DNA from: an uncultured Bacilli bacterium
GTDB taxonomy: Bacteria; Bacillota_I; Bacilli_A; RFN20; CAG-449
DNA: 51,785 nucleotides
Direction: 5' to 3'
Assembly: GCA_944332225.1 (NCBI GenBank)
Contig: CALVJO010000007.1
Span: forward strand, 1 to 51,785
Position 1 is the first letter of the stretch; each line of letters begins with the position of its first letter. The position numbers were made by a program, and so were the translations under genes. The notes under the pieces were generated by a model. The model ran no database searches and had not been told where the DNA came from. It was given only the letters and a program-made list of their open reading frames with translations. This document shows, in pieces, positions 9,471-13,163 of this stretch.

Positions 9471-9499
9471 TCTATAAATAAAGATAAATAATCTATCAA
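9471..9499 (-). promoter_or_regulatory. pyrG promoter
   Basis: On the - strand TTGATA (9499-9494), a 17-nt spacer and TATAGA (9476-9471). The -35 lies inside repeat copy 9479-9531 and the -10 just outside, so the second copy at 13111 lacks this promoter. Confidence 0.55.
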
Positions 9500-9531
9500 A
9501 AAGAGGTTTTATCAAACTTTTATTTAGAAAA
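9479..9531 (+). repeat. 53-bp direct repeat A, copy 1
   Basis: Identical at all 53 positions to 13111-13163 (begins TAAAGATAAATAATCTATC, ends TTTATTTAGAAAA). It lies directly upstream of pyrG. The two copies bracket the block containing the sigma-factor genes. Confidence 0.9.
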
Positions 9532-9534
9532 CAA

Positions 9535-9675
9535 CCTGTCTTTGGAACTTAAAATAGTAAATTAAAAAGCCGTTATCTATGAAAAACCTCATAAATAAGC
9601 GACTTTTTTAGTATTTAATGCTTTTTAAATTTAGAATGTTGATGGGCCCATCAATCAGATTTGGAAGCTATTCTT
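9535..9675 (+). repeat. 141-bp direct repeat B, copy 1, with terminator-like hairpin
   Basis: Matches 12669-12809 without gaps and with four substitutions. It contains a long imperfect hairpin (AAAAAGCCGTTATCTATGA against TCATAAATAAGCGACTTTTT) usable as a terminator on either strand, and in this copy the perfect palindrome GATGGGCCCATC. Only 3 nt separate it from repeat A. Its right edge abuts the rsmG remnant. Confidence 0.85.
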
Positions 9676-9963
9676 TCTGCGTTTCTGGCGCGGTAGCTAA
9701 ATTAAACATCCTTCTTGAGATGGATGATGCCGTTAATTAAAGTCGGAGGCTATTTTATCGCTTTAAAAGGTGATAAAGGGCAAGAAGAATTAAATGAAGC
9801 TAAGAATGCATTAAAGATACTTAACGGTGAAGTTTCTTTTATTCAAGAAGAACATTTGCCGAAAAACAATGATAAAAGAATTAATGTTTTTATTGAGAAA
9901 AAGCAGGTGACGAAAACTAGCTATCCAAGGTTATTTGCGAAAATTAAGAAAAATCCATTGTAA
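9676..9963 (+). pseudogene. rsmG: 3' remnant of rsmG (16S rRNA m7G527 methyltransferase)
   Basis: The C-terminal third of RsmG (GidB) is recognisable: AVAKLNILLE, then MPLIKVGGYFIALKGDKGQE, EELNEAKNALKILNGEVSF and the terminal YPRLFAKIKKNPL. The first two thirds, including the SAM-binding motif, are absent. A frameshift separates LLEM from MPLIK at the duplicated GATGATG (9721-9727). RsmG methylates G527 of 16S rRNA, so an intact copy is likely elsewhere. The upstream edge coincides with the end of repeat B, and a terminator follows the stop. Confidence 0.8.
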
Positions 9964-10027: not shown

Positions 10028-10062
10028 ACCAATAAAAATTAATATTAAATTGTATTAAGAAT
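10028..10062 (+). promoter_or_regulatory. Putative ECF-sigma promoter of the sigma/anti-sigma operon
   Basis: This 35-nt element (ACCAATAAAAA at the left, TTGTATTAAG at the right) matches the one before the lipoprotein gene (11694-11728) in 29 of 35 positions with the same spacing. The two ends are identical and the differences lie mainly in the spacer, as expected for one sigma factor reading both. Confidence 0.6.
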
Positions 10063-10072
10063 AGGAGGAGAC

Positions 10073-10582
10073 ATGGAATTAAAAGAAATTCTTCCAGAGT
10101 TAAAACGCGGGGATTACATTCATTTTGAAGATTTTTATAATCAAACCAATAAATCGTTATTCTTCACCGCGTTATTAATTGTTAAAGATGAACATCTAGC
10201 CAATGATTTAGTTCAAGATACTTACGTTAAGATGTTTGAAAAGATCTCCTCCATAGATGAGAGGCAAAACATTCATTATTATTTAGTTCAGATTACAAGA
10301 AATTTAGCTTTAAACATTTATAACCAAAGGAAAAAGGAAATAGGCGATGAAGAATTATTACTTCTAAAAACGGGAACTTATCATCTCTATCCTCATTATG
10401 ATGAATGCGAAGCTATTCTAAGCGTTCTTGATGAAGAGATAGAAAGAGAAGTCGTCACTTACCATGTCTTATTTGAATATAAGTTTAAAGAGATTGCCAA
10501 GTTAGTGGATAAGCCCCTAGGTACAGTTCTATGGATTTATAACAAAGCGATTAAAAAGTTAAAGGAAAGGGTAGTCAGATGA
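10073..10582 (+). CDS. ECF-type RNA polymerase sigma factor
   Basis: 169 residues, the size of extracytoplasmic-function sigma factors. Region 2 is visible around residues 38-80 (EHLANDLVQDTYVKMFEKI, then YYLVQITRNLALNIY), and region 4 around 130-165 (YKFKEIAKLVDKPLGTVLW, NKAIKKLKE), which is the helix-turn-helix binding the -35. ATG 10073 follows AGGAGGAG closely. The stop overlaps the next start (ATGA), implying coupled translation with the membrane protein at 10579, a typical sigma/anti-sigma arrangement. Its promoter resembles that of the lipoprotein gene, so autoregulation is likely. Signal unknown. Confidence 0.9.
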   Translation: MELKEILPELKRGDYIHFEDFYNQTNKSLFFTALLIVKDEHLANDLVQDTYVKMFEKISSIDERQNIHYYLVQITRNLALNIYNQRKKEIGDEELLLLKTGTYHLYPHYDECEAILSVLDEEIEREVVTYHVLFEYKFKEIAKLVDKPLGTVLWIYNKAIKKLKERVVR

Positions 10583-11640
10583 AAAAAGAAGAAATTATTA
10601 CTAAATTAAAATCTAGCTATGAGCAAATTGAGACTCAGCCTTTTAATAATGACTTAATCTCGAGATGTGAAGATGCTAGATTAAATCAAGAAGTGATTGA
10701 GACAAACAAGAAATTTGCTTTTCCTTTTAAGCTCATTTTTCCTATTGCTTCAACGTGTTTAATCGCAGGTATTATCGCTTTAAGCGTGACTTTACCTAGA
10801 ATTAGGGGAGAGATTTCTTCATCGATAGATAATCCTAGTACAGTTACCTTAACTAAAGCTAAAAGCGTTATTTCTAATGAAATCATGCTGGCATCTATCT
10901 TAACTGATAATAATGATTTAGGTTTAAGGAGCTTAAGATTAGCTAGAAGCGAAAAAAATCAATCATTAGGCTATGAGGAAACCATTTCCTTGATTCATGA
11001 ATATTTATTAACCGGAGAACTTCTATTAAATAAAGAAAATTTTGTGACAAATATTTATTATAACGAAGATGAAAATCATCCTTACCAGTATCTAATGGAA
11101 GTTTCTTATACAGATGATTTAAATAATTTATCATATCAATTTTATTATTCAGAATATAAGCGTTATGAATATGATGATGAAGATGATTTAGATGAAATCA
11201 GTATTATCTTTGAAGGTGAATTAATTATTGATAATGAGACATATCAAGTAAACGGTTATAGAGAAAATGAAGAAGATGAATATCAAATAGAGACTAATAT
11301 CTATTATCTAAATGAACGAATTTTATCAATCGAACAAGAAACAGAAATTAATGAAAATGAATATACATATACTTATTATCGAAATAATCATGAATACAGA
11401 AAAGTTAGTCAAGAAGTTAAGATAGATAATAATAAAAAGGAAATGTCAATTTCTGTTGAAGAAAATAATAAAGAATTAGAATTTCAGTTTGAATATCTAA
11501 CGGAAAATAAAATCTACTGCGAATTTGAGCTTGAAGAGGGAGATGTTGAATCAGAGATTGAATTAATGATTGAAGAGAGAGCAGATTACTATATCTATAA
11601 AGCTCCAGGAAAAGAAGATATCATTATTTATAAAGATTAG
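10579..11640 (+). CDS. Putative membrane anti-sigma factor with acidic extracytoplasmic sensor
   Basis: 353 residues. Residues 1-47 are cytoplasmic and would bind the sigma factor; no zinc HxxxCxxC motif is seen. One transmembrane helix spans about 48-72 (FPFKLIFPIASTCLIAGIIA). The remaining 280 residues lie outside and are very acidic and tyrosine-rich (YDDEDDLDEISIIFEGELII), probably beta strands. This external part resembles the mature lipoprotein at 11757 in order and motif: LRSLRLAR against STLRRAR, YYSEYK against YYNEF, FEGELIIDNETY against LEGIVIHDDVTY. Position, coupling with the sigma gene and topology support the anti-sigma role, which is inferred. Confidence 0.7.
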   Translation: MKKEEIITKLKSSYEQIETQPFNNDLISRCEDARLNQEVIETNKKFAFPFKLIFPIASTCLIAGIIALSVTLPRIRGEISSSIDNPSTVTLTKAKSVISNEIMLASILTDNNDLGLRSLRLARSEKNQSLGYEETISLIHEYLLTGELLLNKENFVTNIYYNEDENHPYQYLMEVSYTDDLNNLSYQFYYSEYKRYEYDDEDDLDEISIIFEGELIIDNETYQVNGYRENEEDEYQIETNIYYLNERILSIEQETEINENEYTYTYYRNNHEYRKVSQEVKIDNNKKEMSISVEENNKELEFQFEYLTENKIYCEFELEEGDVESEIELMIEERADYYIYKAPGKEDIIIYKD

Positions 11641-11668
11641 AACTAGGTGGACGCTTAGTTCTTTTTTT
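11641..11668 (+). terminator. Terminator after the anti-sigma gene
   Basis: AACTAGG pairs with CTTAGTT (7 bp, one G-U) around TGGACG and is followed by CTTTTTTT. It begins right after the stop codon, so the lipoprotein gene downstream needs its own promoter. Confidence 0.7.
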
Positions 11669-11693
11669 AAAAAATAAACTTTTTACAACTTTT

Positions 11694-11728
11694 ACCAATA
11701 AAAAGTGTTCTTAATTTGTATTAAGGAT
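11694..11728 (+). promoter_or_regulatory. Putative ECF-sigma promoter of the lipoprotein gene
   Basis: Second copy of the bipartite element (ACCAATAAAAA ... TTGTATTAAG), 29 of 35 positions identical to 10028-10062. It is 28 nt before the lipoprotein ATG and just after a terminator. Confidence 0.6.
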
Positions 11729-11756
11729 GTAAAGAAAGAAATGAGGTAATTAACTT

Positions 11757-12596
11757 ATGAAAAAAACATTATTAGCTTTATTAACATGTGCATCCTTAGG
11801 CATGCTCGCTTCGTGCAACGCGAATCCTTCAACCAATAACGGATTAAATCAAGGAGGAAATTCAGAAGGTCAAAATTTAAATTTTGATGATGCTTATACT
11901 CTTTCGGCGATTTCTTCGATTAATTTGTTTGACGGAGCGTCAACGCTTAGAAGAGCGAGAAGACCATTAACTGCCGAAGAACAAGATAAAGTCATTAAGA
12001 ACTTCCAAATGGTAGAAAACCTATTGACAAATGAAATTGTTAAAAGCGAAGAAACTCCATCTGACAAAGAAGAATATCAAACCATGTACACAGTGACGAT
12101 AAACGGTGAAACTACTAATACAGTTTATACTTACTATTACAATGAATTTGTCATTCCAACAGATGATTATGATGAAGAAGAGATGTATCTTGAGGGTATT
12201 GTCATCCATGATGATGTTACTTATTCAATAAGAGGTAAAAAGGAAATAGAAAGAGATGAGATGGAAATGTCTTTTGTGATTTCATTAGATCAAGGTACCT
12301 ATGTTGAAGTCGAACGAGAAAAAGAAGATGGTGAAAATGGATTAGAATATACTCTTTATGAAAGAGGAAGAAAAGTTTATGAAACTGAAGTTGAATATGA
12401 ATATACCCGTCACGGAATCGAATACGAATTTGAAGAAGAAGGAATAAACGGTAAGAAAGAATATAAATTTTTCGTTAGCGATAGAGAAAATAAAATTGTG
12501 ACTGCAGTCATTAAAGAAAATCATGAAGAAATTAGAGCTAGATTCCAAATTACAGTTGATGAACTCGGAAATAAAACTTATCTCTTCCTTGATTAA
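11757..12596 (+). CDS. Lipoprotein sharing the anti-sigma sensor domain
   Basis: 279 residues with a type-II signal peptide (MKKTLLALLTCASLGMLASC); the lipidated cysteine is C20. The mature part is acidic with many Glu and Tyr. It aligns by eye with the extracytoplasmic region of the anti-sigma protein over its full length: STLRRARRPL, NLLTNEIVKSEE, YYYNEFVIP, DDYDEEEMYLEGIVIHDDVT and the repeated EYEFEEE strands. ATG 11757 has AATGAGGTAA upstream. It carries the same promoter element as the sigma gene, so it is probably a regulon member acting at the outer face of the membrane, possibly as a decoy, ligand binder or feedback partner. No enzyme motif. Family not recognised. Confidence 0.75.
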   Translation: MKKTLLALLTCASLGMLASCNANPSTNNGLNQGGNSEGQNLNFDDAYTLSAISSINLFDGASTLRRARRPLTAEEQDKVIKNFQMVENLLTNEIVKSEETPSDKEEYQTMYTVTINGETTNTVYTYYYNEFVIPTDDYDEEEMYLEGIVIHDDVTYSIRGKKEIERDEMEMSFVISLDQGTYVEVEREKEDGENGLEYTLYERGRKVYETEVEYEYTRHGIEYEFEEEGINGKKEYKFFVSDRENKIVTAVIKENHEEIRARFQITVDELGNKTYLFLD

Positions 12597-12656: not shown

Positions 12657-12668
12657 AAAAATCAATAT

Positions 12669-12809
12669 CCTGTCTTTGGAACGTAAAATAGTAAATTAAA
12701 AAGCCGTTATCTATGAAAAACCTCATAAATAAGCGACTTTTTTAGTATTTAATGATTTTTAAATGTAGAATGTTGATGGGCACATCAATCAGATTTGGAA
12801 GCTATTCTT
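12669..12809 (+). repeat. 141-bp direct repeat B, copy 2
   Basis: 97% identical to 9535-9675 (four substitutions, no gaps), with the same hairpin at about 12701-12745. The palindrome of copy 1 is broken here (GATGGGCACATC). Its right edge coincides with the stop of a reverse-strand gene fragment. Confidence 0.85.
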
Positions 12810-13026
12810 AATGCATCAAATATTTTTTGTTAGATACATTTTTAAATAATAAAAATTCCAAATTAAGCTTTTCTAACATCTTTATTGTTGATAACTCACA
12901 TGAAATTATTCTATATAGATCATCATTAATTTTATCTAATTCATAATTTCTAATACCCGCGAATAATTCTTCATCAGTAAAATTATTTAAATTGTATTTT
13001 TCCTTCCTTACTTTTATTAATGAAAT
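12808..13026 (-). pseudogene. Unknown reverse-strand ORF fragment
   Basis: A 72-codon open frame without a usable start codon encodes an acidic, helix-forming peptide (NNFTDEELFAGIRNYELDKI, then LEKLNLEFLLFKNV) and stops exactly at the edge of repeat B. Its coherent amino-acid pattern suggests the C-terminal piece of a lost gene. No family recognised. The rest of 12810-13110 shows nothing else. Confidence 0.35.
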
Positions 13027-13110: not shown

Positions 13111-13163
13111 TAAAGATAAATAATCTATCAAAAAGAGGTTTTATCAAACTTTTATTTAGAAAA
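13111..13163 (+). repeat. 53-bp direct repeat A, copy 2
   Basis: Identical to 9479-9531. It lies 40 nt upstream of the ispD start, so one copy is adjacent to each of the two flanking housekeeping genes. Confidence 0.9.

Follow-up and report, generated by a model that had tools for sequence, protein, structure and literature searches.

A candidate self-contained ECF sigma factor regulon in Bacilli whose lipoprotein duplicates the sensor domain of a membrane anti-sigma-like protein

The window analyzed here, a stretch of 51,785 nucleotides from an uncultured Bacilli bacterium with a 1.33-Mb genome, contains three genes in the same direction for a sigma factor, a membrane protein, and a lipoprotein; an earlier note on this DNA had placed them at the same coordinates. 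The first gene (10073-10582, forward strand) encodes a protein of 169 aa that matches Pfam Sigma70_r2 above the cut-off (E 2.3e-9) and Sigma70_r4 slightly below it (E 5.6e-5; 23.1 versus 25.7 bits), and that passes the cut-off of TIGR02937 (50.9 versus 42.9 bits). ECF sigma factors have Sigma70 regions 2 and 4 only and a length of about 170-200 aa, and the predicted product has this composition. It is the sole ECF-type sigma factor that we found in the genome; the second match to sigma-70 region 2 is in a 451-aa frame, which looks longer than the ECF type. The membrane protein gene (10579-11640, forward strand; 353 aa) overlaps the sigma factor gene by 4 nt, and its product comprises ~47 cytosolic residues, one transmembrane (TM) helix and an acidic, beta-rich ectodomain at about residues 91-353. 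The TM helix is near residue 46 in the window and in the relatives alike (at about residue 38-61 in the loci scanned), a [YI]xIKT-type motif is conserved in the cytosolic part of many members, and in the 56 trios described below the membrane protein gene overlaps the sigma factor gene or directly adjoins it. With a short cytosolic N terminus, one TM helix, an outer domain, and an adjoining sigma factor gene, the membrane protein has the layout of an anti-sigma factor, and we refer to it as such as a prediction. The third gene (11757-12596, forward strand; 279 aa) encodes a predicted lipoprotein with a signal peptide, a lipobox (..LASC; Cys20), a disordered tether to about residue 67 and, thereafter, a sensor-like beta domain. 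Cys20 is invariant in an alignment of 64 lipoproteins, and the lipobox is present in nearly all orthologues.

Candidate ECF-type promoters with the pattern ACCAATAAAAA-N11-TTGTATTAAG are located upstream of the sigma operon (10028-10059, forward strand) and upstream of the lipoprotein gene (11694-11725, forward strand), and share 83% identity over 35 nt. Between the sigma operon and the lipoprotein gene is an intrinsic-terminator-like hairpin (11639-11662, forward strand) with a 10-pair stem followed by a T-run; there are two terminator-like sites in the region compared with 1.1 expected, which is weak evidence taken alone. The position of the hairpin after the membrane protein gene indicates that the lipoprotein gene is probably a separate transcription unit. 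The module lies between pyrG and ispD and is flanked by two direct repeats, one of 53 nt that is perfect (9479-9531 and 13111-13163) and one of 151 nt with 95% identity (9530-9680 and 12664-12814), with a truncated 3' fragment of rsmG at about 9682-9963. In sister genomes, the module is directly downstream of an intact rsmG, and it therefore seems that the block in the window was moved to its present site.

The earlier note had also aligned the outer part of the membrane protein (ASF in residue numbering) by eye with the lipoprotein (LIP), and the motifs it listed are real: an LR..R.AR motif (ASF 116-123, LIP 64-69), YYSEY (ASF 189-193) corresponding to YYNEF (LIP 127-131), and FEGELIIDNETY (ASF 211-222) corresponding to LEGIVIHDDVTY (LIP 145-156). 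In pairwise comparisons, the two window proteins are 26-36% identical with a BLASTP E of 1e-6, and in a tblastn search of its own genome the lipoprotein matched only itself and the membrane protein gene (E 1.9e-6). Their Smith-Waterman score is 171, whereas 1000 shuffles reached at most 102 and 1000 local-composition shuffles at most 120. Using hhalign, the similarity of the family profiles was highly significant with 10 versus 10 sequences (probability 99.5, E 2e-23) as well as with 64 versus 55 sequences (probability 99.9, E 2.3e-31 over 238 columns). The AlphaFold models of the two proteins (mean pLDDT 78 and 78.5; the lipoprotein mostly >90 from residue 101) contain 2 helices and 13 strands in the same order, and at every strand the numbering of the two proteins differs by 62-66 residues. 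Positions conserved in both families (lipoprotein/membrane protein) include Y107/Y169, Y128/Y190, E140/E206, G147/G213, Y156/Y222 and Y198/Y264, a ladder of Glu residues (E163, E165, and E168/E229, E231, and E234), and E190 and E193/E256 and E259. Based on the profiles, the models, and the tree described below, we conclude that the ectodomain and the lipoprotein are paralogues and that the lipoprotein duplicates the sensor, as had been suggested from the motifs.

We found no sequence relative of this domain in Pfam, NCBIfam, or the PDB. When 55 ectodomain proteins were compared with Pfam, the 25 families shown were each a weak single match, and Foldseek searches of the PDB with both models gave no match at E 0.001 (best E 0.11 and 0.034, with low TM scores). 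Thus, the domain appears from its sequence to represent a new family with no named family or solved relative found, and the models make a new fold possible. Both families are extremely acidic, with a mean net charge of about -39 for the sensor domains and for the lipoproteins. Per residue, the charge of the lipoproteins is -0.14 compared with -0.05 in a small control set comprising 13 further ORFs with a lipobox at these loci, some of which are doubtful. Our guess is that the ligand of the sensor is cationic or membrane-active; acidic surfaces can also bind divalent cations or simply maintain solubility.

The search of genomes for the three-gene set revealed that the trio recurs, at about 75 loci examined in the order and the class and in two gene orders. 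Within the order, the lipoprotein family was detected in 114 of 279 genomes, the weakest matches being by signal peptide alone; we fetched ~60 loci, which together with the family loci gave 56 nonredundant complete trios, including that of the window. Two further trios (in genomes G020 and G231) were predicted from the promoter pair and then confirmed. In the class-wide search, 219 of 395 genomes matched at E 0.001, with the bottom matches weak and probably due to the signal peptide, and 17 of the 20 class loci fetched are complete trios from other families of the class. Thirteen of these 17 have the order lipoprotein-sigma-anti-sigma, and four are arranged as in the window. Related ECF sigma factor genes with no adjoining membrane anti-sigma gene are present at L045, L048 and L049. 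The hosts of the trio are small-genome Bacilli, mostly from uncultured metagenomes; named records among the matches are uncultured Bacilli, Acholeplasmatales, and Acholeplasma, and one is labelled Christensenella, which we suspect is misnamed. We found no penicillin-binding transpeptidase domain in the genome of the window, consistent with a relative of Acholeplasma that has no wall; the literature gives mixed cell wall predictions for these orders (PMC10868615).

Three observations go beyond the earlier note: the conservation, the shared promoter, and the absence of this promoter elsewhere in the genome. The pattern ACCAATAAAAA-N11-TTGTATTAAG has exactly two sites in the 1.33-Mb genome and the reversed-pattern control none. 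Relatives carry the same promoter pair with diverged spacers; the consensus at both positions is CCAATAA-N15-[CT]GTATT. Among the 56 trios, a general form of the pattern precedes the sigma factor gene in 38 and the lipoprotein gene in 47 (0.3 and 0.5 in shuffled sequence), counts that are partly in-sample because the pattern was widened to admit GTAATAA as the -35 element once the relatives' promoters had been inspected; the same form precedes the anti-sigma gene in 0 of 56 and other ORFs in 3 of 222. With the pattern fixed, the class loci and G020/G231 provided out-of-sample tests. At the 13 loci with the order lipoprotein-sigma-anti-sigma, the promoter is before the lipoprotein gene in 10 and before the internal sigma factor gene in none. 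With L095 and L096 added, it precedes 38 of 54 sigma-first genes versus 0 of 15 internal sigma factor genes (Fisher p 5e-7), and as read from these sequences the promoter shifts in front of the lipoprotein gene where that gene comes first. Scanning the 279 genomes for CCAATAAN15YGTATT identified 19, the window's included, with two sites and no more, separated by about 1.6-1.9 kb; 18 of these 19 were inspected and have both sites in the module, with G144 known at the lipoprotein end only. The reversed-pattern control gave 17 hits in all over the 279 genomes, each of them single. G020 and G231 have no or a weak lipoprotein match, and the promoter pair alone led to their complete trios.

Because the two promoter sites are both in the module, the sigma factor has no detectable targets apart from its own operon and the gene for the lipoprotein, a statement that is valid for the CCAATAA-N15-[CT]GTATT motif alone, as weaker off-consensus promoters would escape. 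A wider regulon in the window's genome was considered and rejected, since sites with one mismatch were no commoner than in the control. Single promoter-like sites in L161 and L168-L170 are away from module genes. The simplest reading is a sigma factor dedicated to transcribing its own operon and the gene for the lipoprotein. The regulation of the lipoprotein by the adjoining sigma factor, which the earlier note had assumed, is strongly indicated by the common promoter. In either gene order, the lipoprotein gene lies nearest the promoter or carries one of its own, as would suit a titrating product that must be made in excess. At L197 (3456-5581), a tandem pair of lipoprotein genes from the family, each preceded by its own CCAAYAAA...CGT promoter, is ahead of the sigma and anti-sigma genes.

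In a tree of sensors and lipoproteins (74 rows), the two form separate groups, and the branching within each largely matches, arguing that the duplication is old and that the pair was inherited together. There are two exceptions. The sensor domain of L042 (from G009) nests among the lipoproteins beside its own lipoprotein, to which it is 57%/50% identical, and the sensor domain of L096 pairs with its own lipoprotein. These placements indicate that on two or more occasions the sensor was either copied anew from the lipoprotein or homogenised with it, and this suggests that one domain can stand in for the other in ligand binding. The locus in G009 (L042:4726-7140) has the appearance of a natural domain replacement, with an outer domain that is 50-57% identical to the neighbouring lipoprotein and ~20% elsewhere. 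Outside L042 and L096, a lipoprotein is 20% identical to its own anti-sigma protein and 19% to those of other genomes; the old divergence of most pairs leaves room for divergent ligands. Three genomes (G030, G034, and G035) have the lipoprotein and no related sigma factor, and the promoter is absent where the upstream region was read; the retention of the lipoprotein in such genomes suggests that it has a use of its own.

Based on these findings, we propose, with our confidence evenly balanced, that the module is an autoregulated, self-contained ECF regulon in which a ligand at the sensor frees the sigma factor and the induced lipoprotein neutralises this ligand in a negative feedback. The circuit is well supported by the homology, the trio and the promoter, while the ligand and the decoy role are what we infer. 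According to this model, the short cytosolic segment of the membrane protein would hold the sigma factor, and the acidic beta ectodomain would sense an extracellular ligand, the binding of which may lead to proteolysis of the anti-sigma protein; the window's genome has a gene for a site-2 protease. The freed sigma factor would then transcribe from the CCAATAA-N15-[CT]GTATT promoters to make more of the trio, and the lipid-anchored copy of the sensor would accumulate on the outer face of the membrane, where it could bind and neutralise the same, probably cationic or membrane-active, ligand. This uptake would lower the signal at the sensor and thereby close the feedback. That the sensor and the lipoprotein share a ligand is suggested by the shared Glu/Tyr positions, the equal charge, and the two re-copied sensors.

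The earlier note had left open whether the lipoprotein titrates the ligand, forms a co-sensor, or gives feedback; we favor a ligand-binding lipoprotein with negative feedback and retain a direct action on the anti-sigma protein as the alternative. In this alternative, which is modelled on RseB/RseA, or on CseA/CseC as proposed, the lipoprotein would pair with the ectodomain as a co-sensor or block proteolysis, and its induction would reset the switch, giving a feedback similar to that of our preferred explanation. Paralogous domains often retain a homotypic interface, the pair is co-inherited with largely matching trees and re-homogenised in two lineages, and loss of the CseA lipoprotein raises sigE expression (PMC6767563). 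However, the lipoproteins that persist in genomes with no related sigma factor and the near-equal identity to own and foreign anti-sigma proteins outside L042 and L096 argue against it, and we consider a direct action possible but on the whole unlikely. More doubtful still is an RsgI-like system for binding a nutrient or a surface, in which the sensor would detect a substrate and the lipoprotein gather this substrate or a cation in a positive feedback. RsgI sensors resemble proteins under their control (PMC4711584), and conserved acidic residues suit the binding of cations; however, the promoter is common to no transporter or enzyme in the window's genome, and neither is a constant neighbour of the trio in the loci inspected. 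Finally, it is highly improbable that the resemblance is merely compositional, arising from Glu/Tyr-rich strands with the lipoprotein as an unrelated passenger, since despite the acidity and the low identity of the window pair the profiles and shuffles rule out chance or composition as its source, and the equal strand order, the high identity in L042, and the conserved trio and promoter contradict it.

In the sigma-E/RseA/RseB system of E. coli, an extracytoplasmic protein tunes the anti-sigma factor, and the sigma-E regulon is large; to our knowledge, RseB is not a paralogue of the outer domain of RseA. There is a likeness in sensor design to sigma-I/RsgI of Clostridium thermocellum, where an autoregulated sigma factor is combined with a membrane anti-sigma factor whose outer module resembles regulated secreted proteins (PMC4711584, PMC6056542); there, the GH10 module of RsgI6 is 57% identical to Xyn10D, a sensor resembling a sigma-I-regulated protein (PMC4711584). 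In contrast to the window, sigma-I is not an ECF factor, its regulons comprise many enzymes, and its sensors are known carbohydrate modules; the window has an ECF factor, a domain with no known relative, and a regulon of the switch and one sensor-like lipoprotein, and the Pfam matches shown for the 55 ectodomain members include neither the RsgI N-terminal domain nor RsgI_M. Sigma-V/RsiV similarly pairs an ECF sigma factor with a one-TM anti-sigma factor that both senses and inhibits its ligand (PMC4183432, PMC5014341), which in the case of RsiV of Bacillus subtilis is lysozyme (PMC5014341). However, no cell wall-modifying genes were detected in the window regulon, and the roles of sensing and neutralising would be divided between two paralogous proteins; Pfam gave no DUF4163/DUF3298 in the window protein nor among the families shown for the 55 ectodomain proteins. 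In Streptomyces coelicolor sigE-cseABC, the CseA lipoprotein is encoded with an envelope-stress sigma factor and affects its level, a likeness that we draw by description; CseBC is a two-component system with no anti-sigma factor, and the sigE promoter is not a target of sigma-E (PMC6767563). The statement of the earlier note that it knew of no described system with this layout stands insofar as we found no description of a sigma/anti-sigma/sensor-like-lipoprotein layout in the open-access literature, and it is narrowed by the precedent of RsgI sensors that resemble regulated proteins. RsgI, RsiV, and CseA each lack the combination seen here, in which an ECF factor and a novel domain occur in a regulon that, beyond the switch, comprises only a sensor-like lipoprotein.

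The sensor domains of ECF modules within the same bacterial family vary widely. Two one-TM anti-sigma-like proteins (L052:4933-6411 and L061:2490-3980) have a serpin outer domain (Pfam E 4e-40 and 1e-41), and L054 and L058 (minus strand) have a serpin-type resemblance by sequence. We found no serpin-type anti-sigma sensor in the literature, and a sensor that is a protease trap would be striking. In two other loci (L053:6729-8531 and L060:2777-3937, minus strand), an ECF sigma/TM protein module is followed by a gene for a secreted trypsin-like protease, and TM proteins with RsgI_M, von Willebrand A, or beta-propeller domains are encoded at L047:652-1989, L051:3636-5165 (minus strand) and L056:4915-6699.

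Altogether, and somewhat tentatively, we suggest that the trio is a minimal sense-and-sequester thermostat, i.e. an ECF regulon, conserved in many families of one class, whose sole output besides itself is a membrane-tethered copy of its sensor. The underlying domain has no known relative and may adopt a new fold, and some of the hosts may be wall-less. Rarely does sequence reveal an entire ECF regulon, as it does here with two promoters, one switch and one product, and the promoter motif finds new members of the trio blind. The module ties a previously undescribed protein family of order- to class-wide distribution to a testable function, and as a natural closed loop in which the sensor domain is reused as the product, it would be relevant to synthetic circuits. 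Moreover, it suggests how host-associated, small-genome Bacilli may cope with a threat at their surface.
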